Notes under the pieces: generated by a model | The model's input: the letters and a program-made list of their open reading frames with translations, nothing else | Told to the model about the DNA's origin: nothing | Database searches by the model: none | Made by a program: the position numbers and the translations under genes | Assembly (NCBI GenBank): GCA_951230915.1 | Contig: OX579638.1 | Span: 824,696-888,695 of the forward strand | DNA: 64,000 nucleotides | Source of the DNA: Antitrichia curtipendula | Lineage: Eukaryota; Streptophyta; Bryopsida; Hypnales; Leucodontaceae | Direction: 5' to 3' | Shown here: positions 4,839 through 27,341 of the stretch, piece by piece | Numbering within the stretch: position 1 is the stretch's first letter | How the letters are laid out: the number at the start of each line of letters is the position of its first letter

Positions 4839-4846
4839 ACTATACG
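4839..4846. repeat. Left target-site duplication (ACTATACG)
   Basis: These 8 bp precede the terminal CAGGGTTG. The sequence directly after the right terminus (27334-27341) is ATTATACG, identical at 7 of 8 positions with one C/T difference. Eight bp is the standard target duplication length of hAT transposons. Confidence 0.75.
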
Positions 4847-4865
4847 CAGGGTTGTTCTGCGCGAC
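4847..4865 (+). repeat. Left terminal inverted repeat of the large hAT element
   Basis: CAGGGTTGTTCTGCGCGAC pairs imperfectly with the complement of the right end at 27315-27333. The first nine positions differ only at position 5 (G versus A), and the match continues as TG..CG..AC. Confidence 0.75.
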
Positions 4866-5039
4866 CTGGCAACATCGCGACAGACAGACGTCACGCGACA
4901 TCCAAGAGACCCTCCGCGACGTCACATAAAGTCAAATTTACCTTTGACTTTTCAAAAAATTACCCCCCTTTTACCTAAGCTACGTGGATGCCATGTGGCG
5001 TCCGCGTGGCACATTTTAGGGGCGCATGCGGGTGTGACG

Positions 5040-5410
5040 TGGACGGGCGACTTCGGATACACAGCGACCGCGGGTAGGGGCGACTTCGTGTTAGGGCGAC
5101 CTCAAGTAGGGCAACCTCAAGTAGGGCAACCTCAAGTAGGGCGACTTTGTGTAAGGGCGACCGCGGCTAGGAGAACACGCATGGAGGTGACCTCGGGTAG
5201 GAAAACACAAGTATGGGAGAATGCGGGTAAGGGAGACCGCGGCTGAGGCAAACGCTCGGACCCGCGGTCGCCTCCTCTTGGACCCAAAGTCGCCCTATTC
5301 GACCTGAAGTCGCCCCTCCTGGACCCGCGGTCACCCATGTTGGACCCGAAGTCGCCCCCTCCTGGACCCGCGGTCTCCCAAGCTGGATCCGAAGTCGCCC
5401 AAAACACATG
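5040..5410. repeat. GTCGCC/GGCGAC motif array upstream of gene A
   Basis: Short phrases such as GGGCGACC, TCAAGTAGGGC and GACCCGCGGTCGCC recur every 12-25 bp, first in the GGCGAC orientation and then, from about 5260, in the GTCGCC orientation. The array ends about 30 bp before a TATA box. It sits 200-560 bp inside the left transposon terminus, so it may be both a promoter array and a subterminal transposase-binding region. Confidence 0.8.
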
Positions 5411-5440
5411 CTCAAAGAAGCATACCCGTGCTCGCCCACC

Positions 5441-5529
5441 TATATATCCATGCGCCCGTACGGTCTTCTTCACCTTCATTCTCCACTTTGGCTCTCTGTC
5501 TTGTATCCTTTATTGGCTGCATGCGTGAT
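5441..5529 (+). promoter_or_regulatory. Gene A core promoter: TATA box plus shared 5'-UTR module
   Basis: TATATAT starts at 5441, directly after the motif array. Fifty-five bp downstream is CTGTCTTGTATCC (5496-5508), followed by GGCTGCATGCGTG (5515-5527). The same two words occur at nearly the same distance from the TATA boxes of genes C and B. ATG follows at 5609. Confidence 0.65.
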
Positions 5530-5608
5530 CCCTATGTTGAATGTTTACTTCTTACTTTTCATTCATCCTAGCTTGTGTTATCGCAAGTTCTCGACGTACA
5601 GAGATCCC

Positions 5609-8083
5609 ATGGCTACCAGAGGCAACAGTGAGGGGTCACTTCCTCTCCTTCAGACAACGCGCACTCCTGGTTGCCTCAGCAAGGCTGCCAAAGACAGGAC
5701 TCGGAAGCGCAAGGGCACCATTCATAAGAAGCGGTTATATGTATTGAATAGTGAAAATCACATTGCTTTTAAAGGGTGGAACGAGGAGCCACAGCCATGG
5801 ACAATGCAGACCTGCGAAGACTACATCGAATGGTGTCACATCAGCAAGATGTTTCCGGCGTGGCGCCATTATCACAACCATCACACTAACAAGGCAAATC
5901 TGAAGCATTGTGAAAATGCAGACTTCACTCAAAGGTGTATAGAATTGTGGCAGGCTATTTATAAAAACCCCAACGTAGACAGGAATGAAGTACCTCTCTT
6001 CATCGCTAGAGGAGCATATGCTGAGGTGGCTCTACAAAAGGAGGTCGATTGGAGCACAGTCAAGGAAACTACATACGTGGCACGTCCAACAAGCGGATCA
6101 ATACCAAGAGGTGTTATGGCTTTTCCAGACGGGGGACTTGGGCCTACTCGAAGTGCTCCTAGAAACAAAATAGCTACTGAAGTTCACAGTGATGATTCCA
6201 ACGAAGATCCTGATTCTGACGGTACGCGGAAGCCAAAGATAGGACAAGACAAAGAAGACACTGTGGGCCCCGCCAAAGTTCAGATTGAAAATGACAAGGA
6301 TCGTTCAGCGTCACAAGGTGAAAGAGTGAAAAACCTCCCGAAGGTGCGACGTTCAACCACGCGAATTGGGCCATGATCAACTTCAGCAGCAGGTCCACAT
6401 CCACCGTTGCCAGCACAAGATGCCAACAACGTCTTTGAATTTGGTCCAAGCGATGACATGCCCATGGGAGCAGTTGTTCGTGCTTCCATCCCTCAATCTA
6501 GAGTGACTCGAACTGACAACGCTATGACTCTAGCTAAGGCTCTCGACCTCCTAAAGACCAAGGACATTAACATTGCTTTGCTACAAAGCAATGTCAGGAA
6601 GTTGCAATCTCAGTGTGCATACAAAAATCATCTCCTCTCTCAACAATCTATAGAACTGCAACGCCTCAGAGACAAAGTACAAGACACTTTTACTTTGTCG
6701 GACATGGATGACGCCTTTTTTGAGCCGGATTCACATCATTTGGACAAGGTTGTAGGCGACCTCACCGATGATTTGCTTCACCATTCTCCTATTGCCAAGC
6801 GTGCCAAGCATTCTTCAATGACTCCAAATGCGCTTCTTACGGCAATTCTGGAAGATACTACCACAAATGATCTCCAGGAGACCCAAGATTCACTCTCGTT
6901 TCCTGTGATTCCTCATTCCGTACAGTCGCAGTCGAGATTGGACCTCGAAAAAGAAAATAGAATGCTTCGAGATCGGTTGTCACAGTTGGGGGCCACATAC
7001 TATCATTGGAAGGTCGCGTGTATCCTCTCAGTGGACAGAGCACAACAAGTTGCAAAGGAATTGGAGAAAATTTCAAGAAACTTCGTTGCACAAGAGCCTA
7101 AACGAGAGTGCGGTCTCACGTCATGGGCATTGATGGAGGACATGTTCCCCACTAACATAGACTTGGCGGAAAAGACCGACACTGATTGGACAAAAAATGG
7201 TTGGGACCACAAAAAACAAATGTCCAGCCATATCGAAGTGGAGGAAAAAAAGCTACTGTGGCCACATCCTGCACCCTTTGTTTTGGACCACACCAAATGT
7301 CCCATATGTCTAGAGCAATTTGGTCCCGAAGGTGGCTGGGCACTTGGATCATGTACACATGTGTACCATCCTCAGTGTCTCATCACGCACTGTTTGATTA
7401 AACGTCGTTGCGTTTTGTGTTCAGCACCATTCCATGATCGTTTGTACACCATGTTCAATTTGACGACTTACATGCCTCTTTCTTGGGAACACAGCAGTGA
7501 TACCACAGAAGACACCAGAATGTGGGGACGAGACTTGCTCTGGAGCTGGAGACAAGGAAACCATGATTTGGAAAAGGGAGTTGCTAGTTCCCAATGGAAT
7601 TGGGAAACAGATCCGGAAGAAATTGCCAGAGTTGGAGTCAAGTTGATGGGAAAAGGGCCACAAGGCGAAGGGAGGAGGGCATTCTTCTACCAGTGCCTTG
7701 GTGGATATTTCAATAAGACCTCCGGAACCTTCAATTGGGGTCCTCATCCACAACGACACCGTTGGAATTTTCAAGGACTGAGGGTGGCCAATCAAGATGC
7801 AATGGCCTCCATAGATGAATTGGACAACATGTCTTACTTAGACTCTGTATACGGGCCTTATTACCAAACTCAAGCCCTCGACTATCTGTTGGAAGAACAC
7901 TCTCCAAAGACCACAAAGACCCTCAAAGCTCTAAAGAATTCCAAAGTCCTGGATTCCATTTTGAAGGCGGACGGACCAGCTTCACGAACTCATGCCAAGC
8001 GTAAGCTTGGTGTTGGGGAGTCATCCACCTACGAACGTGGCAAAGGAAGTGGTTCTCAAAACGACACAGATGTTATCATCTAA
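5609..8083 (+). pseudogene. Gene A: WCHI-domain, coiled-coil, RING-H2 protein with one in-frame stop
   Basis: I do not recognise this family. One frame runs from ATG 5609 to 8083 (825 codons), broken only by TGA at 6374-6376. After a basic N-terminus comes the WCHI domain (about residues 52-150): FKGW, EWCHISKMF, FTQRCIELW, AEVALQ, VDWSTVK. An acidic linker and a helical, probably coiled-coil stretch follow. At about 564-606 is a complete RING-H2 pattern: CPIC, 14 residues, C-T-H-V-Y-H-P-Q-C, then CVLC. RING-H2 domains usually act in E3 ubiquitin ligases, so ligase activity is an inference. The C-terminus is rich in Trp, Gly and Lys. A 72-nt in-frame segment from GT at 6318 to AG at 6389 could be a short intron removing the TGA; otherwise the stop is a CGA-to-TGA type mutation. 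It is the first gene of the large hAT element. Confidence 0.75.
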
Positions 8084-8850
8084 ACATTTTTGTTCTTTGT
8101 TTACGTGAACATCTTTTTGCATAATAGTATACGTGTTGTAAGGCCCCTAGCATATGGTCATACTATATCTACATTAGCAATGGCGAGCAATGTTTAGTAG
8201 TTTTGTTTTTCTTCTTCGATTCCACTTCTGTGGCTTCGTTTTATAATTTATACTTATGTAATGCAATTTTATATTGCTTTGGTTTTCAATATATACTACC
8301 TTGCCTTTCTTGTTTAAAAATGAGGCCATCCATACAAAATTTGGAAATCATCATCAATATTTAATTCTAAACCGATGCAACCCAAACTATTTTCTGCTTC
8401 ACTTATTCAAGTACATTGTTCAAAAATTTGTGATTCATCATTCTAGCCAATTGCCAGTTCAATGTGCCTAAAATTGAAATTGTACACTTCTCTACCTTGT
8501 ATTGATGGTGAAGTAATGCCGTCCAACATTTCTAGAAAAAAAAACTTACATCTTGTAACTTTTGCAATGAAATGAATAAGTAGGAAAACGGGTTCACAAT
8601 ACAACCCAAGAAATTGAACCACAGATCTCTTGCTAGAACAATCTCACCAATGAAATTATTATATTTCAATTCCATCTTAGAGCTTTTAACACATTAGTTC
8701 TTCCTTCAATCTTGAACTTACTTCTTCTTAACAGCTTCTTAACAAGTGAAAATGAAGTGTTTTTTTTTTTTTAATTTACTAAACTCTAAATTCAATTCTT
8801 CAACATAAAAAAATAGTAGATTCAAAATCAGTATTGCCCAAATTCTAAGT
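8084..8850. other. 3' flank of gene A, noncoding
   Basis: AT-rich sequence with no convincing ORF. A first copy of the dispersed phrase CTTGCTAGAACAATCTCACC lies at about 8629. Confidence 0.5.
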
Positions 8851-9960
8851 TACTCCCTAAAGTCCCATTGTCCCCTTGGGGGACAAATGGGATTTCGGGC
8901 AGGAACGTACAGGCTGAATTTTTGTTCTGATTTTTTTAAACTTTTTTTGAAGAAAGAAAAATTGATTATCTTCGTGGGAATATAATTTTTATTTCAATTG
9001 GTGCCCGGGAGCAAAAATTATACCACAAAAAGCCCCAAACCAAACTTGTCAGGCAGCACCAAAAAAATCACAGGAAGTCAAAAAAAAATTTAATTTTTTT
9101 TTTCTCTAAAATATTAAATTTCTATATACGTGTGAAGCTTTGATTCATTCTATTTGGACAAGTATTGAATTAGTTATGGACAATCCTGTTTTTTGGGCAA
9201 TCTAAGCATTTTCTTGGAAAAATAACTTTTAGGATTCATTTTTGAATGCAATTTTTAGAATTTTGAAAAAACAAACATTAGATAAGGTTGTTCTTTCTTG
9301 CTAGAACAATCTCACCGTTGGAATTATTGTGTTTCAATACAACCTTGGAGCTATTAATGATTTAGTTTTTTATTCAATCTTGGACCTACATCTACTTAAC
9401 AATTTTTAAAAGAATGAAAATCGAGTGTTTATTTTTTGAAATTTTTTTCATAAGTTGTGAACACAATTCTTCAATACAAAAATTTTAAACTTGGAGTCCA
9501 TAGAGTAAATTTTTGTTCCAAATGGCGACCAAAGTCAGCTGAAATTGGAAAAAAAGCATTCAAAAACACTACTTTCCAACTACAAAATGCTGATGTCTTC
9601 CAATCCGTACGGTCAAATTTGATGAAATTTTTATCACATGATCTTAGACAAATGAAGTACAAGATCCTACGGTTAAATTTTTTTTTTAATTTTTTTTTGG
9701 TTTCTTGGATGAACGCAGCAGAAATGACAGTTTTCAGTGGTTTAGGGCCAGAAAATAGCTTTGGGACTTTAGGGGTTAAGATGATTCAAAGCCAAAAAAT
9801 ATATTCAAGCAAGGTATAAAAAAAATCGCTTACTTCACTTTAAATGTAAATATCTTACAATGAACATGGTAAAATATTTTTCAATTTCTTCTACACATTT
9901 ATATACTAGTCTAGTAAAAGATCCTACGGTATGATTACTTAGATATGCCGGAACAAAAAA
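8850..9960 (+). repeat. Dispersed AT-rich repeat (CCCGGGCACC / CTAGAACAATCTCACC / GATCCTACGGT family), + orientation
   Basis: Landmarks in order: a hairpin-forming CCCATTGTCCCC...GGGGACAAATGGG (about 8864-8890), TTTCAATTGGTGCCCGGGAGC (about 8990), CTTGCTAGAACAATCTCACCG (about 9298) and AGATCCTACGGTTA (about 9661, again near 9911). The same landmarks recur near 13230-13720, 15940-16560, 21780-22600, 49290-49700, 52800-53770 and 56150-56970. It is noncoding in every copy, probably an old nonautonomous element or a noncoding part of the transposons. Confidence 0.65.
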
Positions 9961-11405
9961 TTAAAGTTGTCAACACCTTCGCCACCTTGCAATAGAAGTG
10001 ATACTTTTGAGTGGTCTTTTTGAAAATAAGGCCTTCGGACTTCAGCGGTTAACTTAAGTTTTCTAGCAATACTAAGTTATAAGGTTTGAATCCAAATAAT
10101 AAAGAACTGAATTTACAGCAACGTGTAGGAAAATGAAATTAATTTGTGCAATTTTTTTTTAATGCTCAAAATTATTTTAAAGTTGAAGTCCATACGAGCT
10201 TGAAATTTTTTTTAATACTTATATTAGCAAGATAGAATTAAAACTCACTAATTCCTAAGGTAGCAAGCCAAAAAATGATTGTCCAAAAACCAAGATCCTC
10301 CATATCTTTCACATCATTTAATATCAAAATAGAATTAATCAAAACTTTTCATGTAGCAAAGAATATAATTTATGAGAAAATCTATTTTAAACAAGAAAGA
10401 AAATTTAGGTCAATTATATCTATTATTCTATTAGTGTCTAGTCTCATTGGTTTTTAAACTCTTTGGCATAAGTCTTACTTCGTTAGGACTTATTCAAATT
10501 AAAAATATATATTCCTAAGAAAATGATATGTTCAGATATTCTTCAAGAAAGTTCCAAGATATATTTACAAAATTAAAGGCAAATGTATTTGGAGTTTTGC
10601 ACAGAATCCTTTTTATCCATCAAGAGACTAAACGTTCTTTTATGGGTTATCATTCTTTATTTTTTAATTTGGAAATTTTCAAATAAAAGAGCAAAAGACA
10701 AGTTAGACCAATTCATAAGCTTTTCCTTCCTTCAAAGTCCGCAAAATAAAACTCCTTATTTTAACTTTCATCGGTGTCATTTGGAATTCCGCAGTTCAAG
10801 TTTTCAGTAATCCGTACCAACTACCAAGCCATGAATGTAAACAATCTAAAAAAAATAATTAATTTTTTTTGGTAATTTTTTTATTCGCTCTCCAATTTCA
10901 CAACAAATCTTTGAAAATCTGCTCCAACGTCTACAATATTTTTGGAGACATGAAACAAGCTTTCACAACTACATTATGGGGGGTGCAGTGCCATCATTCC
11001 TATAATATTCATGCCAAAATTTCAAATTCTTGTATCAATGGAGCATGAAAGAATTATCAGAAATACCAAACTAAACTCCATAGTCCTTCAAGGATTACAA
11101 TTCATATCTATAAAAGTTATCTTCATTTTGTTATCAAAATTCTTTTTTAACACAAACATTACAACTCAAGTTTCATAGATCCTTTGAAATTTAGAGCTCT
11201 ACACTTCTCATAAAATGTCTTCACCCCCATATGGGGCAACATGCCAATTAAGAAGTTTTCATACACACGCCATAAAAAAGAAATATAAACACTTTTGAAT
11301 GAGAAAATATTATATTTATTTATTTACTCAAGGTAACTGATAGTCTAACATCCCAAACAAGGGTGGGCAAAATGTAAAATTCCCACTCTGCTCCTATGTG
11401 TACCA
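9960..11405. other. Noncoding stretch between genes A and B
   Basis: Very AT-rich, with no recognisable protein motif on either strand. Short ORFs at 10275-10457 and 10583-10810 have no supporting features. Confidence 0.5.
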
Positions 11406-12851
11406 CTAAGTGCTAAAAACAAAGTTGCTTTCAATGGAACCCGGCCCCATTGCGTCCACCTCTGCCTCTGTTTTTCCTATGGTACTCATCTGAAACTTCC
11501 ACCATTCTTTGTGAAAACGAAATTCAGATTTCAAATGGCGTAGCGATTCTTGTACCGCCATTGCATTCATGGAGTGTAGCTTCACCAATGAACGAAGCCT
11601 TGCCACTTCTTCAGCACTGGTACTTGGCTCATGTTCAACAGCGGCGATGCAATATTCTTTTTCTTTTTTCTTTATTGCTACATCGAGGTCTCGCCTTTCA
11701 TTCTCGTAAATCCAACGTTCACGTTCCAGGAGATCTCGCTTTGATTGCCATACCACATACTCGTCCATGTAGTGCACCCTTCCACTTTCACGCTGCCTAA
11801 AATAAAAATCGCGATTTTTTTTCAAATCCTTCAAGTACTTGTCGTTTTCTTGGATGCTTTTCGTTACTCCCTCCAACTGCTTCTTCAAATCATCCACAAC
11901 AACGGGACCCACTTGTACTGAGAGTTCATTCTCATTTAATTGACGGAGTTCGTTCATCTTCTCACGCAAAGCAGATCTTACACTTGCCGCCTTGACACTC
12001 AACAACTCTATGTCGTCTTCCGAATCGCTTCCATCAACACTGCGGTTCCGCTCTAGAACAACATGTTCCACTTCCATAGGCCCTGCATCTTCCATGCCTT
12101 GCACATCAACGTGGGATTCTGTGATGGGCTCGTCAACCTTCATTTTTCCCTTCCTATCCATTTCCAAACCCAAAGCCTTGTTTATGACTTCCATGAGAAG
12201 GTCGTCATCATCACTGTGGAAAGAATATCCATCGTATTCATGGGTGTGTTCATCTTCGCTAGAAGTCGCCGACCACACTACATTTTCATCAGAAATGAAA
12301 AACTTCCCAGGTTTTGCCGATGTCACCGATTCCTTCACATCCGGCGCTACATCTGCCCAAGGAATACTTGATTCTCCTGGATGGGTCCCGATCGGAAGAT
12401 CCTTAATGCTTGACCAATCCACCTCTTTCTTCAATACAACTTCAACATACACCATTCTTGCAAGAAAGAAAGAAAAATTGTCGTTTCGATACGTTTGTAG
12501 GCCTTTATAGAGTTCCTTCCACACCTCGCAGCATCTTTCTTGGAAGGCTCTGTTCTTGCAATATGCAAGATTTACCTTGTTCGACTTCAAGTGGAACTTG
12601 TGACGATACAACAGAAATAACTTGTCGATGTGGCACCAATCCACATATTTCTGAACCGTCTTATAAGTCCAAGGCGTGGGTTCATCTCTCCAACCCTTGA
12701 AAGCCTTAATCTTCGGATGGATCAAGATGGCCTTGCGCTTCTTGTGGATTTTTCTTTTCTTTTTTCGATCCTTGCCTCGAAGCGCCTTGGACTCTTTCCC
12801 ATCTTCTGATCTCGGTACAGCAGGTGGCGAAGGTTGGGCCTCCTCTTCCAT
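11406..12851 (-). CDS. Gene B: WCHI-domain coiled-coil protein, intact
   Basis: An uninterrupted ORF of 481 codons from the ATG at 12851 (MEEEAQ), chosen because it follows the TATA box and shared 5'-UTR module at a spacing like that of genes A and C. A lysine/arginine-rich N-terminus (KKKRKIHKKRK, a possible nuclear signal) leads into the WCHI domain: FKGWRDEPTPWT, DWCHIDKLF, ERCCEVWKELY, YVEVVLKKEVDWSSIK. An acidic Ser/Asp-rich linker follows, with runs such as SDDDDLL and GSDSEDDIELL. The C-terminal half is strongly charged and heptad-like (coiled coil). Unlike A there is no RING. B is the only member of the family in the window without an in-frame stop. The partner and function are unknown; by analogy the coiled coil suggests multimerisation with A or C. 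It is transcribed toward gene A. Confidence 0.8.
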   Translation of the reverse strand: MEEEAQPSPPAVPRSEDGKESKALRGKDRKKKRKIHKKRKAILIHPKIKAFKGWRDEPTPWTYKTVQKYVDWCHIDKLFLLYRHKFHLKSNKVNLAYCKNRAFQERCCEVWKELYKGLQTYRNDNFSFFLARMVYVEVVLKKEVDWSSIKDLPIGTHPGESSIPWADVAPDVKESVTSAKPGKFFISDENVVWSATSSEDEHTHEYDGYSFHSDDDDLLMEVINKALGLEMDRKGKMKVDEPITESHVDVQGMEDAGPMEVEHVVLERNRSVDGSDSEDDIELLSVKAASVRSALREKMNELRQLNENELSVQVGPVVVDDLKKQLEGVTKSIQENDKYLKDLKKNRDFYFRQRESGRVHYMDEYVVWQSKRDLLERERWIYENERRDLDVAIKKKEKEYCIAAVEHEPSTSAEEVARLRSLVKLHSMNAMAVQESLRHLKSEFRFHKEWWKFQMSTIGKTEAEVDAMGPGSIESNFVFST

Positions 12852-12928
12852 CGCAATACACAAGAATATTCCTTCCCCTGATGCCAAAATGATCAAAATA
12901 CGCCCTCCAAAACTCTGACCCCTAGCTC

Positions 12929-13019
12929 ACAAGCAAGCACTCAGCCACTTCAAGGCGGATGAGAGACACTGCGCAAAGCCAGGAGTGGAGAACGCGGGTG
13001 ATGGGCGACCTCTTATATA
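12929..13019 (-). promoter_or_regulatory. Gene B core promoter: TATA box plus shared 5'-UTR module
   Basis: On the minus strand TATATAA starts at 13019, followed 50 bp later by TGTCTCTCATCCGCC and then GGCTGAGTGCTTGC, ending near 12929. The same module precedes genes C and K1 and, more weakly, A. Confidence 0.7.
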
Positions 13020-13130
13020 CCCGATGTCGCCTGGGGCGCGTATGGAGGGCGACTACGGGTCCGAAGGCAGGGAAGGGCGACTGCGGGAACCAAGCGACCG
13101 CGTGTCCAGGGCGACCGCAGTGGCCCCTTG
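12985..13130. repeat. GTCGCC/GGCGAC motif array upstream of gene B
   Basis: Copies of GGGCGACC, GTCGCC and GCGACCGCG spaced 12-25 bp apart surround and precede the TATA box of gene B. Confidence 0.75.
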
Positions 13131-13229
13131 TTTAAGCTTAAAGTCTCAACAACTTTTTTCCATCAAAATTTGCTCGAAACTGCCATTTCTATTGCATTCA
13201 TTTAAGGAAGTAGGAAAAATATATCTTTT

Positions 13230-13720
13230 TAGAATCCAAACGTAGGATCTTCTACTAAACTTATTTCACATCATGTGGTAAAAATTTTGTGATTTTTGAA
13301 CTTACGGATTGAAGATTTGAAGGTTATTAGCATTGAAGGTCAAAGAAATTTTTTTTTTCAAGAAAATGCTTTCATTGTCTGGAAAAAAAAAGAATCTCCA
13401 GAACTTTCACATCAGTAATCTAAATGGAATGAATCAAAGATTTCCATTTAGACAAACATATAATGCATAAGAAAAAAAAAAAAATGATTTCAACTTTTTG
13501 TAGATTTTTGTGGGCTACTCGATCTTGCCCGATTTAAGGTTATTATAGCATAACTTTTGCTCCCGGGCACCGATTGAAGTAAAAATTATATTTCCATAGA
13601 GATAATAAGTTGCTCTATCTTATAAGACAATTTCAAAAAGTTTCACCAAAAATTGAGCTCATAGAAGCTTGCCCAAACTTTCAAGAGTCCCCCAAGGGGA
13701 CTTCCGAAACTTTAGGGGTC
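13230..13720 (-). repeat. Dispersed AT-rich repeat, minus orientation, partial
   Basis: Carries complements of the landmarks AGATCCTACG (about 13240), GGTGCCCGGGAGC (about 13560) and the CCCCTTGGGGG hairpin word (about 13690). The middle landmark CTAGAACAATCTCACC is missing. Confidence 0.55.
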
Positions 13721-14087
13721 ATAGGGTAAAGTTCGATTATTTATAAAAGACATTACGAGAAGGCATCTTTTGGATGAAAATCTTTTGAGCCTCAAATTTA
13801 GTTTCTGTTTCCTAAACTCTATGGCACAATAGTTTGGAAGCAAACGTGGCCAAGTACATCTGAACCAAAAATTCTATGAAGTTTGAACACCAAAATCCAA
13901 ATTCAACATTCAATATATGGAAGTAACGGAACGGGGTGGTCTGCATTCAACATACTTGTTTTTTTGGAAGACATTACGCATGGTATAAAAACTTTTTGTA
14001 TATTGACATTGCTATTACAAAATGAAAGGCGCACAATGTGGCCAACAATTTGAAGCCGACTTGATAACATCAGTTCCTATAGTCCTA

Positions 14088-15671
14088 CTACAAAATTGAG
14101 TCACGGAAAACTACTTCCGCGGGCTTCATGTACCACGGTTTATCCATGAGCAACTTTGTAACCTCAGTACATGTCGGTCTCTTCTTTGGATCAGGGTTAG
14201 TGAGTTCACCCAACTTGATGGCAAAGTACATGGATCCCTCGCGTCTCTTGAATAAGTCCGTATCGTATTCGACCATATTAAGAAGATTCATCCATTCAGT
14301 CAACTTTCCAATAGAATACGAGTCTGATTGCACTGTATATTTATATTGTGATTGCATAATCTCTAGGCTCGTACTGGAATTTCGTGGACCAAACGTATAA
14401 AACAACTTTGGAGCCACCCACCAACGGCTTCGTAAGGATTGCTGCTTCTTCTCCTCATAATCATATCCATAATGTGAAGGAACTCCTTCATCAAAACGAC
14501 TTGAAATTCCGAAATCACAAATCCCAATGTTGATTACTTCATCCGAATAATCGGGGAAATGCAGTAGTATGTTTTGAGGGTTTAGGTCAATGTGTAGCAC
14601 CAAAGACTCGTGCATGAGATGTGTCACGTACACTAAAGCCCACGCCAACTTCGCCTTGTGCCTTCGAAACAAGCTAAGATGTTTTTGATTGTCCTCTGTA
14701 AGTTTCCACACCCGCTTCATTTCATGCCAATCAACGCTCTCTGACACCTTCTCATCCAATCTTTGCATTTCAAGCCATATACCGCCATTCCACCACAATG
14801 TGTACGCTTCCATAGTTTTGGCGTGAATACCAAAAAACTTAATAATGCCAGGATGGTTTACGGGGCATGCCAAGGCCTCTACGGATCGTTGCTCCCTCGC
14901 TTCACGCATGTTCTTTGACTTTGGCACTTTCCCAGCAAAAGCAACGTATGGCGGGATTGTTTGCATCCCTTCAATGCGCACCTTGCGCACCATTCCATAC
15001 CCACCTTGACGGTCAAATCCAGTGAGGGCAATTACTTTTGCCTGAGGAGAGATCCATGTGACAGTGGAGCCAGCCTCTCGTGCAAAACCCGCCTTCAATG
15101 CGTCCGTTTTCCACTTCATACCCCTCACATGATTCTTCGAAAGTTTCTTCACAACTTCATGCCACCACGCCATCTTTTCACGGAATTCCTTGGCTTCATC
15201 ATCTCCTGCAAATCCCGGCACTTCCGGTCGCATCTGTAGCATTATTTCCTTGGTGTTGAATATGCATGTCTTTACAGTGTTCTCAATCCACAATTCGTAC
15301 TGGGAAAAGTACGTCTCCTCCACGTCTCCAAAATCTTGCGATGCTCTGCACTTGCTTAAAATTCTTGCCTCCAAATCAGCAGTCAATTTGAAGATGCCGT
15401 GGGATGGGTCCCTTAGGTAATTGGCCTCCAAGAACTGTGTAGTTTTTCCCGCATACTAGGACAGGCAACCCTCAAATGCATAGTTTGCATAATTGGAAGG
15501 AGGATAGGTTGAATCCTTGTCATGTGCCGTTATGATTTTCTTCTTCCTCTTCATTTGCCCTTCACTCCCTGTTGCCTCACTAACAGGTATCTGCAGAGCA
15601 AACAATGCCGCATCATCTAAATCAAAAATGGATTTCCGTATTGAGCTGCTGCCTTTCTATGGATTAGCCAT
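14088..15671 (-). pseudogene. K1: protein-kinase-like protein with two in-frame TAG stops
   Basis: One frame runs from the ATG at 15671 to 14088 (528 codons), with TAG at 15657-15659 (codon 5) and 15456-15458 (codon 72). The uninterrupted part encodes 447 residues. With stops counted as positions, the kinase fold shows a glycine loop GGYGMVRKV (about 223), the lysine of AGKV (248), a catalytic loop HIDLNPQN (360-367; Asp and Asn kept, Arg of HRD replaced by Ile) and an intact DFG (386-388). The key phosphotransfer residues are therefore present. An insertion with a WWNGG motif lies between the lysine and the catalytic loop and is shared with K2. The N-terminal 220 residues are family-specific. 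K1 shares its 5'-UTR module with WCHI genes B and C in the same transposon, which argues for joint expression. Substrate unknown; phosphorylating the WCHI proteins is only a guess. TTG at 15431 would open the uninterrupted ORF but is an unlikely start in a eukaryote. Confidence 0.75.
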
Positions 15672-15813: not shown

Positions 15814-15824
15814 AAGGCCGGAAG

Positions 15825-15915: not shown

Positions 15916-15939
15916 TCCCCGTCTCGTTGTTTTGAATTA

Positions 15940-17330: not shown

Positions 17331-17945
17331 TTCCCTACCCGCGGTCAACCAAGACAAGGTCGCCCCAATCCCGCGGGCGCCCCAAACCCGAAGTCTCCTA
17401 CATTCCTTCATTTGTGCAGAAAGGGACTCTCCCTACTCAAGTTCTGCAATGATCCGAATTCTCCAATGATCCCCCATTTGGGAAGGAAGAAACGGTCTAT
17501 CCCCACCCGAGGTCACCCAAGACCCGAAGTCTCCTCCATTCATTCAATGGCTCCCACACCCACTCGAGCTCTTCCAAGACAAGAGGTCGCCCAAGGCAAG
17601 AGGTTGCCCTAAGAGGTCGCCCAAGACAAGAGGTCGCCCAGGACAAGAGGTCGCCCTCTACCTGCGGTCGCCTAGACCCGAAATCGCTCCTTGAACACAA
17701 CATTCGACCAATTTTGAGACATGAAGTAAACCCATACGCACCCGAGGTCGCCCAGGACAAGAGGTCGCCTTCTACCTGTGGTCGCCTAGACCCGAAATCG
17801 CTCATTCAACACAACATTCGACCAATTTTGAGACATGAAATAAACCTACATCCACCCGAGGTCGCCCAAGACAAGAGGTCGCCTACCTGCGATCACCTAG
17901 ATCCGAAATCGCTCATTCAACACAACATTCGACCAATTTTGAGAC
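17330..17945. repeat. Long GTCGCC array with a 111-114-bp higher-order repeat
   Basis: ACCCGAGGTCGCCC, GACAAGAGGTCGCC and GACCCGAAATCGCT recur throughout. From about 17640 a larger unit ending CGACCAATTTTGAGAC repeats with copies at 17705, 17819 and 17930. No gene follows directly, so this array may be a promoter remnant or expanded subterminal sequence. Confidence 0.8.
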
Positions 17946-18050
17946 CAAGACAAAAGAATGACTCAAGATTAAATATAAATCATAATAGCTCAAAGATGAA
18001 ATCAAAATACAATAATCCAATTGTAAAATAATTGTAACAACAAAATTAAA

Positions 18051-18203: not shown

Positions 18204-18326
18204 TCCCTAAAGGACAATTGTCCATTAAACACCTAATTGAAAGGGCTAAGGCATGTACAAGTGAATAGCAAAGTAATACAATGTCAATAGTGAATTATAA
18301 TTTGGTGCAATGTAAAAGGTCTTCTC

Positions 18327-18356
18327 AAACCCTAGACCCTAGACCCTAGACCCTAA
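18327..18356. repeat. Telomere-variant repeat (CCCTAGA)n
   Basis: About four tandem CCCTAGA units ending in CCCTAAT, a one-base variant of the plant telomere complement CCCTAAA. Confidence 0.75.
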
Positions 18357-18794
18357 TACCAAGTTTATTAATTTTGTATGCCATGCCTAGAGTTATGTAA
18401 TCCCACTTCTTTTGCTTCTATATGAAGAAGTCACCTAAATATATAGAAGTGACATCCATGTTTTATTTTTCATTGTGAATTTTTTCCAATTCAACGGCCT
18501 TTCCCTTTATATGTAATTTTGAATAAAATGAAGTAAATGGTACATGACTAAAATGAATGGTGGAGGAGAAAGTAATAAAATGGGGAATGGATTTACTAAA
18601 CCTCCATCCATTAGACCCCACATGGCCTATCTTCCACATTTTGGTGATGAAAAATCTTAGTGGTCTTGTAGAACCTTACTAAATTTTTAATTGTGGTAGT
18701 TGACATGTTTTTCTCAAAATTCATTTCAAAGTGTACCATGAGCTTCCAAAATTAGATTTAGGAAGTGAAAGATTTTGATCTCTCTACCCGTGGT

Positions 18795-19250
18795 CACCAT
18801 GCCTTGGATTCCATGAATTTCAAACTTGAATTTCCCTCCTTCTTGGACAAGAGGTCGCCCACCCGCGGTCGCCCCTGCCTTGGATTCCATGAATTTCAAA
18901 CTTGAATTTCCCTCCTTCTTGGACAAGAGGTCGCCCCACCCGCGGTCGCCCCCACCTTGGATTCTGGGAATTTGAAACTTGAATTTCCCTCCTTCCTGGA
19001 CCCGAGGTCGCCCTACCTGAGGTCGCCCCTAACTTGGATTCTGTGAATTTGAAACTTGAATTTTCCCTCCCTCCCGGACCCGCAGTCGCCCAGGCCTTGA
19101 AGTTCATGAAATTCAAAACTTGAATTTCTTCCCTCCTGAATCCGTGGTCGCCCTGAATCCACGGTCGCCCTGAACCCGCGGTCGCCTTGTCTTGCGTACG
19201 TGCCCGGATCCGTACTCACCCAGGGCAACTTCGGGTACATAAGAGGTCGC
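18795..19250. repeat. GTCGCC array upstream of gene C, built on a 77-bp tandem unit
   Basis: CTTGGATTC recurs at about 76-77-bp spacing (18803, 18879, 18956, 19033) with a shorter last step. Each unit holds one line of GAATTTCAAACTTGAATTTCCC and a pair of GTCGCC words (for example GACAAGAGGTCGCCC and ACCCGCGGTCGCCC). The array ends at a TATA-like TACATAA at 19236. Confidence 0.85.
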
Positions 19251-19332
19251 CCCCTCCCATTCTCGTCACTTTCGATTCCAGCGTTGCGCACTGTCTTTCA
19301 TCCGTCTCAGAGCGGCTGAATGCGTGCTTGTG
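19236..19332 (+). promoter_or_regulatory. Gene C core promoter and shared 5'-UTR module
   Basis: TACATAA (19236) is followed 55 bp later by CTGTCTTTCATCCG (19291) and GGCTGAATGCGTGCTTGTG (19314-19332). Spacing equals that in gene A. ATG follows at 19425. Confidence 0.65.
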
Positions 19333-19424
19333 TTCTGGGATTTTGGGGCTTGTAATTGCTACCAAATTTGCGTCACCGAACTATACTTTTTTTGGTGGAG
19401 TTCCCAAGGTTGAAATCATCCACG

Positions 19425-20948
19425 ATGGACGCTAACACGAAAAAGATTAAGAAGAAAGGAGATAGCCAACATAGAAACCGTCGCATCCTTCTTAATCTAG
19501 GGGCTGTGGCATTTCAAGGTTGGGATCGAATCAACAGAGATTGGACGATGGTGATTTGCAAGAAGTTTGTGGAGTGGTGCCATATTGACAAGCTATTCCC
19601 TTTTCATCGACACAAATTGCATCTAAAGATGAATGCTGCAAATCTACATTACTGCAAGGATGTCGCATTTGTGCAACGTTGTATCGAAGTGCATCGACAT
19701 TTGTACAACACACGAACAGTGGTCAGGAGCGAGGTCCCGTTGTTCATTTGTCAAATGGTGTATGCAGAGCTAGTCTTGGCGCGAACGGTAGATTGGACTA
19801 CCGTCAAGGCATCGAAGCTTATCACCATTCCAAGAGCCAAAGACATTCCGAGGGCGGGTCCCTCCGCTAATCCATGGGACGGGCTAGGAAAGAAGAAGTT
19901 GATCCAAACAGGGGCGGCGGATGAAGAATACGTGTGGTCAACTCATGCAAGTTCAGCTAGCGAAGAAAGCTCGGATGAAGAACTTACCTCGAGCGCTCCT
20001 ATGGATACAATGGAAGTAATCCCATTGGATGTTACCCCACTTCAGGTTCATCATCCCGAAAACGATGAAGTATTGCAACATGTGTTCGCATGCATCCAAA
20101 TAGAAGCACTTGATAGACTGGATGGAGAGATCGAAACAGAGGAGGAAGAGGTGGTGCCACCTTTGTTGGCATTGCCTTGGGTGGAAGAAGTACTAACAAT
20201 GGAAGAACACGTTGAAGGTTCCTATCGTCGAGATACCACGAAAGCCAAAAAACAGTTTTACAAAGAGAAACTTCATTAACTTCTTGAAGATTTGGCAAGG
20301 ACAGAGGAAGCATGTCAAAATTACAAAAAGAAGACTGTGGAAACTTTTGATGGTGAATATGTGTTCACCCTCCAAGCAAAAATTGAAAGTGGGCAAACCC
20401 GTTTGGCCGTGCAAGCTAGAGAGATAGCAAACCTGGAGGCATTTTATCGGGAATTTTCCGGTGGTCCAGACGGAGGGCCTAGCGCTGGCGGCAGTGAGGA
20501 AGCCAAGGCTCGGCTTTCCAAAATTATAGAAGATTGCAGGATGGAAGAAGATCGGTACATTACTGCAAAGAGAAGTGTGGAGGAAGGAAGGTCAAGGATA
20601 ATTCACCTGACCGAAATCGGGGATCGGGCCCCTCTTGATCGTGTCTCCGAATTCGATGCCCAAGATGTAGATAAACTATATGGGACACCGCAAGCAGAAG
20701 TAGCCGACTTGAAGAAGAAGTTAGCTACTTGTCTCTCGTTGGAAGAGAATTTGCAACGAAGCGTGCATCAGTTGAACCAACACATTGATTTGTCCAAATC
20801 GTGGAGAAAAGCTTGGAGGCAAGGTTACTTTAAGAGCTTCGGGCAATGTAACATCGCATATCTGAAGAGGGTAGAGAACAAGGTGATGGTCGAGCTGGAA
20901 TCCAAGAAAAAGAAAAGAGAAGAGAAGGACAAGAAGGATATTGCATGA
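19425..20948 (+). pseudogene. Gene C: WCHI-domain coiled-coil protein with one in-frame stop
   Basis: One frame runs from ATG 19425 (MDANTKK) to 20948 (508 codons), broken only by TAA at 20277-20279. The charged helical sequence flows across the stop (KEKLH then LLEDLARTEEACQN), so a CAA (Gln) codon probably stood there. A Lys-rich start is followed by the WCHI domain: FQGWDRINRDWT, EWCHIDKLFPFHRHK, FVQRCIEV, YAELVLARTVDWTTVK. An acidic Ser/Glu linker and a long coiled-coil region with a very basic end (KKKKREEKDKK) follow. No RING domain is present. The protein is closest in plan to gene B. It carries the shared 5'-UTR module and lies in the large hAT element. Confidence 0.75.
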
Positions 20949-21346
20949 TTTTGATTAGTTGCAATTGTTGTAGGACTATATGCTTTTGTAAACATGTATA
21001 TATACCCGCGGATTATGTATTTGATATTCATGGTTTTAATGCAAATTTGTCCATTTCAAATCTTGATTTTCTAATGTTGAGGGCTCTTGGATATAAGGCT
21101 CTAGGAAATAGGACTCTTGTACATTAGAGGTTGGAGAAAAATCACATCAGAATTTAAATTACAAAATTTGTGGACTACAATTTCATTTCACATAAATTGA
21201 TTGTAGTTCAACATATTATGCCATTTAAAACCGACCATCTTTAAAGAGGCCACTTCTTCAAGTAGAACACGGGAAAAAAAAATTAAAAGATATCAAATTG
21301 GTTTAAAATTTGAACATGGTTATGATCAAACATTGTAATCTTCCAA
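20949..21346. other. 3' flank of gene C
   Basis: AT-rich noncoding sequence ending where similarity to the second hAT copy begins. Confidence 0.5.
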
Positions 21347-21779
21347 CTCATAAGTGATGTTGTTATGTTTTGTTTTGCCCTTACAAGTGGAGCATGTGTC
21401 TTTCTTTTTAGAATTTGAAATTATTATGCATTTTTTAGGAAATAATGAAGAAAATTCCATATCTCATACAGAATATACTCAAAATATCTTACATTTTCAC
21501 CATAGAATTATATTATGATTAATAACATCATTATGTACACCGAAGTTGGCGTGCCATGCTAAAATGGGAGACATAACAAACCATACTTATAGGCCCAAAG
21601 TTCATATTGCTATAAAATAGTAAAAATTAGCATTATTTCAAATGTTCCAATTGGAATAAAAAATGTATGTAACAAGCGTGCCAAGCATTAGGTAGACTCA
21701 AGATCAAGAAATGCCATTTGAATTCATGAAATTCACAGCAGTAAAAAACTACAAGAAATGCCCAAAAATCACTTTAAGG

Positions 21780-22600
21780 GTGATTTGTGGATTAACCCCT
21801 AAAGCCTCGAGGTCTTTTTTCCATCAAAACACACTTAAAACTGCCACTTCTATTGCAAAGAGCAAAAAACTATAAAAATTGTTTTTTTTTGCATATCTAA
21901 CCGTAGGATCTTATACTAGACTAGTATAAGAATGTATGCAAGAAATTTCAGAAACTTTGACCACATAGATTGCAAGATATTTGCATTCAAAGTGAAGAAA
22001 ACAAGTTTTTTTGCAGCTTGCTTGACTAGATTTATGGGCTTTGAACCTATTTAACTTAAATTTTTTGTAATGCTGATTTTGATTTTCTAAGATTATATGT
22101 TGAATAATTCAGTTGAGAATCTAGGAAAAAAAATTCAAGAAAGAAACACTAAATTTTCACTCATTAAAAAATTGTTAAATAGAAGTAGGTTCAAGATTGA
22201 AGGAATAACTAAATCGTTAATAGCTCGAAGGCAAAATTGAAATACCATAATCCGAACGGTGAGATTGTTCTAGCAAGCAAATTCAACCTTGTCTAACATT
22301 TTTTTTCTGAAAATTGAAAAAAATTCCATTAAAAAATGAATCCTAAAAGTTATTTTTTCAAGAAGATGCTTAGATTGCCCGAAAAGCTAAGATTGTCCAT
22401 AACTTTTTCATTTTTAGTCCAAATAGAATGAATCAAAGCTTCAAATGTACACAAAAAGACATAGATTTTGGAAAAAATATTTAAGAAATTTATTTTGACT
22501 TTTTGTGATTTTTTTGTGTTGCCCGCCAAACTCTATTTTTGGCATAACTTTTTCTCCCGGGCACCATTTGAAATAAAAATTATATATCCACAAAGCTCCA
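21780..22600 (-). repeat. Dispersed AT-rich repeat, minus orientation, upstream of the hAT transposase
   Basis: Complements of GATCCTACGGTTA (about 21900), CTAGAACAATCTCACCG (about 22250) and GGTGCCCGGGAG (about 22555) occur in reversed order relative to the copy after gene A. Confidence 0.6.
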
Positions 22601-22659
22601 AAAGCGGCCCTAAAAAGGAAAAAAAAATTGCACACATGCTTACCCATGGACCATGGTCG

Positions 22660-22841
22660 CATTCTACTGGAGTCGCGGTCCCCCCAGAAAAGGACGTGCA
22701 GTCGCCTGGCGGGCACCCGAAGTCGCCCTTCATAGGACCCGCGGTCGCCCTACTAGACCCGCGGTCGCCCCCTCAGCATGTACCCGAGGTCGCCTCTGTA
22801 CCTGAGGTCGCCCTCACCCACAACCCCTCTTGGACTATAAA
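22660..22841. promoter_or_regulatory. GTCGCC array and TATA box of hAT copy 1
   Basis: Eight or so copies of phrases such as GACCCGCGGTCGCC and TACCCGAGGTCGCC precede TATAAA at 22836. The equivalent array in the second copy is 39 bp shorter. Confidence 0.7.
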
Positions 22842-23069
22842 GCCTGAAGGGCAGCCATTGCCTCTCATCTTGCTCCGGTGGTAAAGCTCTTGTCTTGAAT
22901 CCTCTAAAGAGGCTTCCTGCGGACGTTTAGGTTCTTCGGAGGGCAACAACCTAGCTTTGAGAGGTTCATAGGACCACTCTTGGCGGGTGGCTTTGTCATT
23001 ACTTCTTTTGATTGGTCCGGTTTTTTCGATAAAGTAATTTTTTCGTGAGACCCATTGCGGATCTGCAAG

Positions 23070-26000
23070 ATGGCTGGCCGAGGTGGTGGGAGGACAACGC
23101 CTGCTAACGATACACGTAGGGCCACAAAGGAGTGGGACCCTTGGCTCATAATGTGCACTGAAGGTGATGCCTCCTTGTATCCAAAGAAATGCAGATTCTA
23201 TGGGTGGAGTACAGTATTTGTACGGAAGAGGGCATTGATTCACTTTGGATTTGGCGCCACACGTAGACAGGATCTCTGTCAACGTATCCCTCCAAACGTA
23301 TTGGAAAAATTTAGGAACTATATGGGGGTTGTTCCAAAATTCATGAGCTACGAAGAAATGTACGATGCACCAATTGCACTCAATGCAGATGATGGTGTTG
23401 TTGGGCCCCTTGTTGGGCCTGAAGTGGAGGTGGATTTTGAAGGGTCCGGGGACCCTAGTCGTACGAATGAACCATCGACTCCTAATCCAGACTCAATAGA
23501 TTCTACTCCAGCGATAGTGGAGAGAAGGAGGAATGTGCCTTCCATTTCCCGTCAAAGAAGTATGGATGAAGCATTACAATTGGCCCTTCGACAGAAGTTA
23601 GATAAAATGTGGGCTTCCTTTTTTTATGAAGCCAACATAGCCTTTAACGTCGTGCGACATCCTGCGTTTATAAATGCAGTGAAGGAAACCGCTATAGCTG
23701 GATTTGTGTATCAACCGCCATCATACAATGCAGTGCGCATGAAAATGATAGATGTGAAAAAGGCAGCTGTAGAGAACATGGTCTCCCAGCGGACGAGGAA
23801 CTCTATTGACCAGTATGGAGCGACTATTTGTTCAGATGGATGGTCTAATACCAATACTCGTCCTTTGATGAATATGATGCTCGTATGTCCTGCTGGAGAT
23901 GTTTTTTTGGGCTCGGTGGATAGCACAGGGGTGAGGAAGGACATTGCCTACACCACGGATATTATGGCACAATACATAGACCAGGTTGGACCAGCAAACT
24001 TTGTTCAACTATGTACGGACAATGCCGCAGTAATGACAGAGGCCATGACAAGGTTGCAAGAAATGTACCCTCACATGTATAAACAAGGGTGTGCAACACA
24101 CATTTTGGATTTACTTTTGGAAGACTGGGGAAAGGAAAAGAAGGTGACTGAATTGGTGGAGGACTGTAGGAAAATTTGCACGTTCATCAAAAAATATCAG
24201 CTCACTTTGGCTCTGTTTCGGAAATATTCACCGAACAAGGTGTTGAGACTCCCTGCCTTAACGCGGTTTGCTTGCAACTTCCTCATGGTAGATCGTCTCG
24301 TGGATTGCAAGCAGGCGTTGCACAACGTGATTTTGGATGAGACGTATGCGCCTTTTGAGATGAGTTTGTTTCAGCGGAAGAATGGATACATAGTTCAAGG
24401 ACAAGCCGTGCGTGCAAGACAAAACATTCTTTCAAAAGCGTTCTAGGTGAAATGTGAGAATTTTCTGCACATGGTACAGCCTGTGCTCGTTGCTCTTCGA
24501 GTGTTTGATGGGAAGACCCCGGCAATGCCCAAAGCTTTGATGGTGATGCAGAGCTTGAAAGAGCACGTGTACTCTTTGAGGAATGAGCCTTTTTTTCTAG
24601 ACCCCGCGATTGCAGACAAGTACAAGAAGCAGTTTGACGCTCGTTGGAAATTGATGCTCACAGATTTGCACTATGCAGGTGCACTATTGAACCCATATTT
24701 GCTTGATATAGCAACCATTCAAAACAATGGCAAGGCCAAATCTGCCTTGAATCGAGTCATACGAAAACTCAGCGAGCCATTGGGAGTGTCACCCATGGAG
24801 GCAATGAGTGAGCTTGTGGAATTCAAAGAAAAGACAGGTCCATTTGACCCTTTGATGGAGGCTCCTGATATCACTCAAGGTACACTACTGCCCCATCAGT
24901 GGTGGAACCATGTGGGTGGTAATGCTCTCCCGAAAATTGCAAAGAGAATTCTATCTTTGACATGCTCAGCATCTTCATGCAAAAGGAATTGGAGCATGTA
25001 TTCGTTTGTACACAATAAAGTGCGAAATCGCCTGGCCACATCCAAGGTGGAGGCATTGGTGTATATTTACGCCAACAGCAAGCTCGAACGTGAGAAACGT
25101 GGACACAATCCTGCCCTTTTTTACGATAAGTACCTAATGGATGGAGATATTGAGGAAGAGAACGAGGAGGCATTGTCTTTGGGTGACAAAGATGACGTGG
25201 TTTCTAGAGTTGGTTGGGCTGCCGATAATCGTATGGAGGAAGAAGAGCGCTTGCATGAAAATCCTTGGGTTGGAATGATGCCTGCTGCTGTTGACCTCTC
25301 GCCAAGACGACGTTACGGCCACACTTTTACGGATGGTAATGATGAGAACAATTCTGGTGAAGAGGAGCCCCTACGTACACCAGAACGGAATCGCGTCTTT
25401 GCATGGGATGAAGCTCCAACCGCATATTCACCGCTACCGAGGGAAAGAACTTTTGATGACAACAACAAAGGCGTACAAAATCCAGTGCCTGCACCAGAAG
25501 AGCCTGCAAGATCTCCAGTACTAGCACATCCGTCTTCAAGCATGCCAATAAATCTCCGGAGCGCTGCACGAGTTATTGTGGAAAGTGAAAGAGAAGAAGA
25601 GGCAGTACACATTGATGAGGTTGTACGTGAGGGGTGCCCAATTCCTGTAGTAGTGAATGCGCGTACCACCCGAATAACAGAAACGGTGGAGTACGATTTA
25701 GATGTGCCTCTACAAGCTATTCTGAATTTGAATCGTAATGCACCCTTAAATCGAGGAGCAAGTCAGAGCGTGGCTACGGTCACAAGGTCTATTCCAACCC
25801 ATCTGCCAAGGCCGCCGGTGCATCGAGGTCCACCACGGACCATTGATGAGGAAGTCCATGCCTCAGCTCCGCAACCCACTCAACCTTCATCAACGTTAGC
25901 CCCAGGGGCATCATCATTGGGCACGCGTAGATACAACAGTGGAGGAAGGAAGCGTATTAGGAGGGTTCACGAGGTGGTCCATAGAAATCCTAAACGTCCA

Positions 26001-26345
26001 AATCAAGTTGTCCAACGGTTCAGCATGGGGGCGGAATGTTCCAATCAAAATGTCGGTCAATCAAGTGGAAGAGGGCGACACCGTACACCCAACACTGATG
26101 GAACCACGGACGTGTTGAGGCGCACGAAACGACTGGTGCAAACAAAGGGCGTTGCCGGTGTAGATATTGAAGTGCGGAATCTGAATTCAGAGGTAGAATG
26201 AGAGGTACGAAACATACCAGTGCCAAGAGAAGAAGACGAGAACGAGAGCTCGACCGACAACAAGAATAGGGACGAGTCGCATGAAGATACAGACCCCAAT
26301 GCCGATGAAGTGTCAAATGATGACGACTTTGATCCTAGTGAATAG
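23070..26345 (+). pseudogene. hAT transposase, copy 1 (two in-frame stops, damaged BED finger)
   Basis: The frame runs from ATG 23070 (MAGRGGGRT) to 26345 with TAG at 24444-24446 and TGA at 26199-26201. Homology to hAT transposases continues straight through the TAG (ILSKAF, then VKCENFLHMV, where relatives have a Trp after KSF), so TGG probably became TAG. Domains: N-terminal BED-like finger, DUF659 core with ICSDGWSN (first Asp) and LCTDNAA (second Asp), GCATHILDLL, and C-terminal hATC with QWWNHVGG and SSCKRNWS. Where most relatives have Glu in this last motif, here it is Lys. The BED finger reads CRFYGW, but CRFCGW in copy 2, so a zinc ligand is lost. The TGA at 26199 is CGA in copy 2 and removes the acidic tail. 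This copy is almost certainly not functional. It is the gene nearest the right terminus of the element. Confidence 0.9.
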
Positions 26346-26830
26346 ATGTGGAGATAGTATAGTACTATTGTAAGGATTCAACATACGTTTTTTTGTATCG
26401 GAAATTTGTAGATGAAGATTATAATAGATTAATAGTTTATGTGTGACTTTTTTGTACATCTTCATATTAAAGTATGTGAGGCTGAGAAACATATAGGAAG
26501 GTTTGAATTTTTTTGGAGTGTGTAGACTTTCACAAGCATTGGAATGGTGACCATAACAAAGTAGTAGGAAGTGCAATGCAATTACAACTTCATTTGTATA
26601 CCCCGGACCTAACCTATATATATATGAGTTATTAATATAATTATAATAATTATTGTGGACTTGTATTGGATTTTGTGCATTCGTTCAAATGAGAGGAATT
26701 GAATTCTACATTTCATGAGGTATATTAATCAAAATTGCAAATTGTATAAGCCGTTATGAATAAGCGGCCAATGTAATGCTTTTTAAGCATGTAGTTTTAA
26801 GAAGATTTTAATAGATGTCATGTTCAATTA
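26346..26830. other. 3' flank of hAT copy 1
   Basis: AT-rich noncoding sequence with TATATATATGAG and AATAAT runs. A poly(A) signal was not assigned. Confidence 0.5.
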
Positions 26831-26834
26831 CAAC

Positions 26835-27130
26835 AGAGGCCACCCGCGGTCGCCGCTTGAATCCCCCCCAACCGCTGTTGCCTTTGGACCCGCAGTCGCC
26901 CCACACACGCAGCCGCCCACACACTGGGTACCCGCAGTCGCCCAGACATTGGAAACCCGAAGTCGCCCAACCCATCCTCCACCCGCGGTCGCCCATAGAC
27001 ATTGGACCCGAAGTCGCCCATGCAGACCCGAAGTCGCCCCACTTATAGAAGCCGTAGTCGCCCTGGTTCTTGGACCCGCGGTCGCCCTACCCTGATCTGC
27101 ACTCGCCCTAACCCGCAGTCGCCCAAGCTG
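26835..27130. repeat. Right subterminal GTCGCC array
   Basis: ACCCGCGGTCGCC, GACCCGCAGTCGCCC and GACCCGAAGTCGCCC recur about fifteen times, 200 bp inside the right terminus. This mirrors the array 200 bp inside the left terminus and is duplicated at 61165-61460. Confidence 0.85.
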
Positions 27131-27314
27131 ACGTGGTTCTGTCTTTCCACGTCATTGCGGACAACCAGACACGTAGGACAAATCCATTTACCATGGGGTA
27201 AAAAACTTCCAAACCCTAAATTTTTTTGCGACGCATTTGTCGCCTATATTCGACACATGTCATACATGACACGCGACGCGACATGTCTAATACGTCACCG
27301 AAACTTGGAAACCC

Positions 27315-27341
27315 GTCCGACAAGACAATCCTGATTATACG
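27315..27341. repeat. Right terminal inverted repeat and right target-site duplication
   Basis: The terminus ends ...CAAGACAATCCTG at 27333; the following 8 bp (27334-27341) are ATTATACG, matching the left flank ACTATACG at 7 of 8 positions. Confidence 0.75.

Follow-up and report, generated by a model that had tools for sequence, protein, structure and literature searches.

A giant hAT transposon family in Antitrichia curtipendula carries a recurrent cargo of WCHI, RING and kinase genes

Elements of the hAT superfamily are among the best studied transposons. They have CAGGG-type ends and make 8-bp target-site duplications, and the usual ones are small, a few kb in length and with no more than one or two genes. 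A 64,000-nucleotide stretch of Antitrichia curtipendula DNA (contig OX579638.1, 824,696 to 888,695; called the window below) holds something of the same kind that is 22.5 kb long and has four extra genes inside. This raises the question of whether the two ends belong to one mobile element and, if so, whether the genes inside are its cargo and what they do there. The termini, the flanks with seven of eight bases alike, the hAT transposase and the four extra genes listed in a preliminary description of the locus are all present where it placed them (Table 1).

Table 1. Features of the window element, its neighbors and its diverged relatives. Positions are in window numbering, negative numbers lying to the left of the window.
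Feature	Position	Strand	Remarks
Left target-site duplication	4839..4846		ACTATACG
Left terminus	4847..4866	+	CAGGGTTGTTCTGCGCGACC; all 20 bases shared by 12 of 17 sibling pairs (by eye)
GTCGCC/GGCGAC array, 10 sites	5046..5394		Left terminus, upstream of gene A
Gene A	5408..8083	+	WCHI domain (ORF 5408-6376) and RING-bearing part (ORF 6407-8083), same frame
Gene B	11406..12896	-	WCHI domain and long helices, 496 aa
Motif array, 5 sites	13004..13110		Upstream of gene B
Gene C	14088..15431	-	Protein kinase (PF00069)
Motif array, 11 sites	17359..17878		C/D intergenic, some 2 kb upstream of the kinase ORF
Motif array, 11 sites	18854..19246		Upstream of gene D
Gene D	19356..20948	+	WCHI domain (ORF 19356-20279) and following ORF (20292-20948)
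Motif array, 6 sites	22701..22807		Upstream of transposase
hAT transposase	23055..26201	+	DUF659 and Dimer_Tnp_hAT; in-frame stop 24444-24446
Motif array, 11 sites	26849..27239		Right terminus
Right terminus	27314..27333	-	CAGGATTGTCTTGTCGGACG, read inward
Right target-site duplication	27334..27341		ATTATACG; 7/8 match to left flank
Partial copy of element 2	44889..55714	+	End at 55714 abuts the partial second copy; WCHI/RING gene 44982-47873, kinase 50945-52477
Partial second copy (right part of window element)	55715..61662	+	Right flank GGTGGAAG
Element 2, 15,666 bp	-47634 to -31969		ACTAGCAA on both sides
16.2-kb element, 16,244 bp	C1		Perfect duplication, CTACTGGA twice
18.6-kb element, 18,606 bp	C1		Perfect duplication, CTCCCTTG twice

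The element spans 4847 to 27333, begins with CAGGGTTGT and ends with ACAATCCTG; its short terminal inverted repeats agree in eight of nine bases. By arithmetic, a random pair of 8-bp flanks would agree at seven or more positions with a probability of 25/65536 (about 4e-4). Both the mismatch in the flanks and the mismatch in the right terminus consist of a T on the right and a C in the partner. A near-identical right part at 55715-61662 terminates in ACAACCCTG, and comparison with it revealed four T-for-C changes within the final 50 bases of the window copy. Given this right-side pattern, a single decayed base is a fair reading of the imperfect duplication.

We searched the genome (400,189,583 bases in 303 contigs) with both ends, the right-end query being 200 bp long. 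Since only the best 40 of 313 first-look candidates for the right end and the best 40 of 379 for the left end were scored, all counts of end pairs are lower bounds. Among these, at least 17 left/right pairs lie within 100 kb on one strand outside the window, all in the expected order and none reversed; pairs on opposite strands numbered two among the best 40 matches per end, both involving one rearranged place on C3. The two ends are CAGGGTTGT and ACAACCCTG in 14 of the 17 sibling pairs, as judged by eye. Identical 8-bp flanks were observed for 12 of the pairs, with lengths of 9,032, 22,750, 23,458, 23,637, 24,041, 24,428, 24,894, 40,694, 42,421, 42,837, 44,359 and 47,704 bp. One further pair agrees at seven of eight bases (41,369 bp), and the 24.5-kb pair at C3:5194251 matches at all eight if its left tip lost one base (by eye). 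A direct duplication is absent in the remaining three: a 23,113-bp pair has none, while the 39,522- and 53,445-bp pairs on C3 have swapped-looking flanks that, by eye, match each other's in reverse complement (8/8 and 7/8). These last two, at C3:20593220-20632741 and C3:20510815-20564259, are oppositely oriented copies that look as though an inversion had exchanged their ends. As a control, mismatched combinations of flanks gave no identical match in 272 and only two that were one base off.

Six of these copies, on C2, C3, C4 and C8, are 40.7-47.7 kb long, with the same two ends and matching duplications (five 8/8 and one 7/8); they possibly represent nested insertions or a longer subfamily. 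In addition, a 9.0-kb pair found separately on C1 shares both ends and has a 7/8 duplication, and no cargo or transposase proteins were detected in it.

These pairs bear on the possibility that the left and right ends come from different elements and lie 22.5 kb apart by chance. Nested and partial copies abound near the window, and CAGGGTTGT alone is frequent in the genome (4,229 occurrences versus 2,081 for the reversed control), both of which would favor such a composite. However, seven other copies of 22.8-24.9 kb join the same two end families and have duplications (in one case allowing for the one-base shift), and a sibling is collinear with the window element in the five segments read, so that a composite origin is scarcely credible. 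The preliminary description had taken the two ends to define one element, and the 17 pairs elsewhere, 12 of them with identical flanks, together with the collinear sibling, bear this out.

To either side of the window, 100 kb less 10 kb was read. Element 2, on the left, is inserted within another copy of the window element's left part, and positions 7581-7588 of the window represent its uninterrupted target site. Its own transposase, with a broken frame, is also of the hAT kind and shares 34.6 and 38.3% identity with the halves of the window transposase; a WCHI/RING gene, a kinase and another WCHI-like ORF accompany it. The partial copy of element 2 inside the window keeps the WCHI/RING gene and the kinase and is without the middle part that holds the transposase. 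The partial second copy of the window element differs from 21347-27333 by 23 substitutions and three indels, and its left part was not found within 100 kb.

Several observations in this neighborhood stand by themselves. Between 21347-27333 and 55715-61662, no substitutions fall within 23210-26133 (about 2.9 kb of transposase sequence) and all 23 fall across the other 3 kb, a contrast that gene conversion or unequal mutation rates could explain. Adjoining the window element are a RING-like ORF and another diverged piece of DUF659 sequence (27362-30140 and 37193-38062), possibly the remains of more giant hAT families. At 110889-111199 in window numbering (L023 6889-7199) lies a 311-bp MITE-like element with an exact 8-bp duplication, TAAGAAAC; its CAGGGTTGTCCCC ends are similar to those of the 16.2-kb element on C1.

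Segmental duplication or recombination, rather than transposition, might also have been the main route by which this region multiplied. The partial second right part inside the window and the two C3 copies whose ends were seemingly swapped by inversion are what such a history would produce. Against it stand 12 different perfect 8-bp duplications at 12 sites and the uninterrupted target site of element 2, and we regard this alternative as very improbable. Chance pairing, segmental duplication and composite origin were accordingly rejected on the sibling data, and movement of the element as a unit is well supported.

We next consider what moves with the ends. Genes A, B and D each encode a WCHI domain, with 36-43% mutual identity over 176-191 aa. 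In gene A, a short interruption that leaves the frame unchanged separates the WCHI domain from the part with a RING-like finger, which scored 26.4-26.6 bits, slightly below the Pfam cut-offs of 27-27.3; in the 16.2-kb relative, both parts lie in a single 810-aa ORF. Gene B has metagenome homologues at 43-49% identity and a predicted structure with long helices behind the WCHI domain (mean pLDDT 58, pTM 0.33). Its family gave no sequence match in the PDB, and comparison of the model with the PDB gave weak, mostly coiled-coil matches, none at E 0.001 or better. The WCHI proteins scanned had no Pfam match for the WCHI domain; its alignment matches 11 database proteins (E 0.001 or better; 7,993 candidates scored). 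Gene C is a protein kinase (Pfam Pkinase, 46.8 bits against a cut-off of 31.7) and matches 36 database proteins (E 1e-5). For two pairs of WCHI and kinase database matches the longest contigs are of equal length (6460 bases for both P0018 and P0028, 2045 for both P0021 and P0035), which hints at linkage on the same contigs. The Rfam scan of the window at gathering thresholds gave no match.

The transposase has matches to DUF659 (PF04937, E 4e-33, 114.6 bits against a cut-off of 34.7) and to the C-terminal dimerization domain Dimer_Tnp_hAT (PF05699, 29.8 bits against 21.4). It ends 48 aa before that of the second copy at 55715-61662, and its in-frame stop is common to both window copies, neither of which therefore has the intact transposase of an autonomous copy. 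Since its own frame is interrupted, the window copy probably moved in trans.

The preliminary description had proposed that the genes move as cargo and had suggested looking for elements that share these ends and the order of the genes. Such a search supports the proposal. In the five 1.4-kb stretches read from the 22,750-bp copy on C2, genes A, B, C and D and the transposase keep the order of the window element, are displaced relative to it by no more than about 240 bases and show 97.6-98.5% identity. Two more copies, on C9 and C8, in which only genes B and C were read, have these two in the same order without frameshifts; internal stops in gene B affect two of the three siblings (one stop in C9, two in C8).

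Comparison with the C2 sibling revealed constraint on part of the cargo. For genes B, C and D pooled, 39 differences fell in the 2751 nonsynonymous sites and 32 in the 717 synonymous ones (Fisher p 4e-6). For the RING part and the transposase taken together, the corresponding counts were 34 in 2190 and nine in 603 (p 1.0), indicating no constraint, with dN/dS of 1.1 and about 0.9, respectively. In gene B (p 0.001, 8e-5 and 0.035 against C2, C9 and C8) and the kinase (p 0.006, 0.11 and 0.004), amino-acid-changing differences per site were fewer than silent ones, significantly so in five of six copy comparisons.

Similar cargo also recurs in diverged hAT families, which goes beyond the preliminary description, as do the motif arrays described below. 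Ten pairs of ends 9-30 kb apart on C1 were chosen from the first 100 CAGGGTTGT places listed. A duplication was found in three of these ten (9.0 kb, 16,244 bp and 18,606 bp) and was absent from the other seven (four to eight mismatches). The 16.2- and 18.6-kb elements each contain a WCHI/RING gene and a kinase along with a hAT transposase, so that all three diverged elements (15.7, 16.2 and 18.6 kb) combine perfect duplications with these three genes. Note that the 18.6-kb element has a 200-N gap close to its WCHI part. Its transposase is uninterrupted (963 codons), while that of the 16.2-kb element has two in-frame stops and the frames are interrupted in the window element and element 2 as well. 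The transposases of the four families are 35-44% identical. When the window element was aligned with the 18.6-, 16.2- and 15.7-kb families, in that order, the transposase scored 1436, 1109 and 808 and the RING gene followed the same order (784, 415 and 212); the kinase scored about equally against the first two (588 and 601) and then 357 or 243, depending on the copy. With the same genes in a sister copy and a similar core in three relatives, the cargo looks like standard equipment, not an accident.

Repeated motifs occur near the ends of Ac, and each of the elements studied here has its own arrays, the motifs having been picked by enrichment within the same elements. In the window element, GTCGCC occurs at 59 sites, of which three are in coding sequence, although coding sequence makes up 46% of the element; the kinase ORF has a single site within 900 bp upstream. 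In element 2, CGTCCG occurs at 44 sites (one coding), located at both ends, where its two WCHI ORFs start, with four sites upstream and six downstream of the transposase and none near the kinase. The 16.2-kb element has 82 CCGTCC sites (three coding), which mark its two ends and precede each of its three genes; none lies within 900 bp downstream of the genes. In the 18.6-kb element the arrangement is less pronounced. The motif first chosen, GCGCCC, was weak (18 sites); the 15 sites of GTCCGCG occupy both ends, four positions within 7384-8378 and two upstream of the transposase, and no motif was found near the kinase and the WCHI/RING gene except one CGTCCG site at 13102. Because a gene that starts beside an end has the terminal array upstream, only internal arrays are independent. 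Gene A, the two WCHI ORFs of element 2 and the 16.2-kb transposase are so placed that a terminal array serves as their upstream array. The independent arrays precede genes B and D and the transposase in the window element, the transposase in element 2 and, in the 16.2-kb element, both the kinase and the WCHI/RING gene. The pattern is thus one of family-specific arrays at both ends and upstream of many, but not all, genes.

Could the cargo simply be passengers, host genes or pieces of them that a hAT element picked up and that have no role in it? Pack-TYPE elements are non-autonomous, hold host gene fragments and are without transposase sequence; the window element has transposase sequence and long cargo ORFs. 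The core set recurs in four families whose transposases are only 35-44% identical, so passive capture would need repeated events with the same genes; the arrays upstream of many cargo genes and the pooled constraint on genes B, C and D also speak against it. On the other side, the RING part and the transposase are unconstrained between two recent copies, and capture of genes by plant DNA transposons is described in two reports (PMC8903248, PMC13317346). On balance, we consider passive carriage unlikely.

A second alternative is that the cargo serves the host, for instance in defense or signaling, as has been proposed for Starship cargo. Kinase and RING genes are of the signaling type, and most comparisons revealed constraint on genes B and C. 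Yet the motif of the transposon ends is also found at several cargo genes, and the recurrence of a similar set with diverged transposases fits a function for the element better; we think a host role quite improbable.

Taken together, the paired ends, their duplications, the collinear cargo of the sibling, the recurrence in diverged families and the arrays make it highly probable that the interval 4847-27333 is a member of a giant, multicopy hAT family, mobile as a unit, that retains an accessory cargo set. The element and its cargo are well supported. Judged from anatomy, and mainly from the placement of the arrays, the cargo would function in regulation or anti-silencing of the element itself. 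We hypothesize that the hAT transposase acts on the ends, probably being supplied in trans for the window copy, that one or more WCHI proteins may read the family-specific arrays and act on the promoters and ends of the element (by activation or anti-silencing), and that the RING protein and the kinase may serve the same purpose by modifying transposase or host proteins.

The 8-bp duplications, the short CAGGG...CCCTG inverted termini and the DUF659/Dimer_Tnp_hAT transposase place these elements in the hAT superfamily (Ac/Tam3/Tol2 type), from whose usual members they differ by a length of 15.7-24.9 kb and a recurrent cargo set. Among other large elements, the 14-kb ToxTA (formerly ToxhAT) similarly bears cargo and was once filed as hAT, but it is reported to have TA duplications and 74-bp TIRs and is judged Tc1/mariner-like and non-autonomous (PMC12506042). 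The fungal Starship giant transposons resemble our elements in large size and cargo and have a tyrosine recombinase captain (PMC12506042); no such DUF3435 recombinase was found among the Pfam matches of 20 window ORFs.

Closer in logic are elements with accessory genes that act on epigenetic control. VANC of the Arabidopsis VANDAL elements is a transposon-encoded accessory protein that recognizes short motifs in the non-coding parts of its own family and counters silencing (PMC10398659, PMC5735166, PMC13317346). The elements described here likewise combine family-specific motifs with accessory proteins, although VANDALs are MULEs, our WCHI proteins are without a Pfam WCHI-domain match, and WCHI binding is predicted from motif placement. 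Diverged lineages of TET/JBP-encoding fungal DNA transposons (hAT7 and others) share an accessory gene that acts on an epigenetic mark (PMC12730594); they differ in being fungal, in having one accessory enzyme and in the 7-bp duplications of hAT7. A giant hAT family with kinase and RING cargo was not found in the portions seen of the literature searched, subscription papers and preprints being outside its scope.

A broader reading, which we put forward tentatively and rate at somewhat below even, is that these families form a giant multigene hAT lineage in which a module of WCHI DNA-reading, WCHI-RING and kinase proteins may have traveled with the transposase through deep divergence, each family acquiring its own arrays at ends and promoters, in an arms race with VANC-like logic and more components. 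Such a module would amount to a cut-and-paste transposon with genes for its own regulation. In annotation, the cargo genes could easily be mistaken for host kinase and RING gene families. A large, multicopy hAT lineage with recurrent multigene cargo would mean that a regulatory module can be kept by cut-and-paste elements and evolve together with them, and the families, with different motifs and related proteins, would provide a natural series for comparing DNA recognition and anti-silencing.
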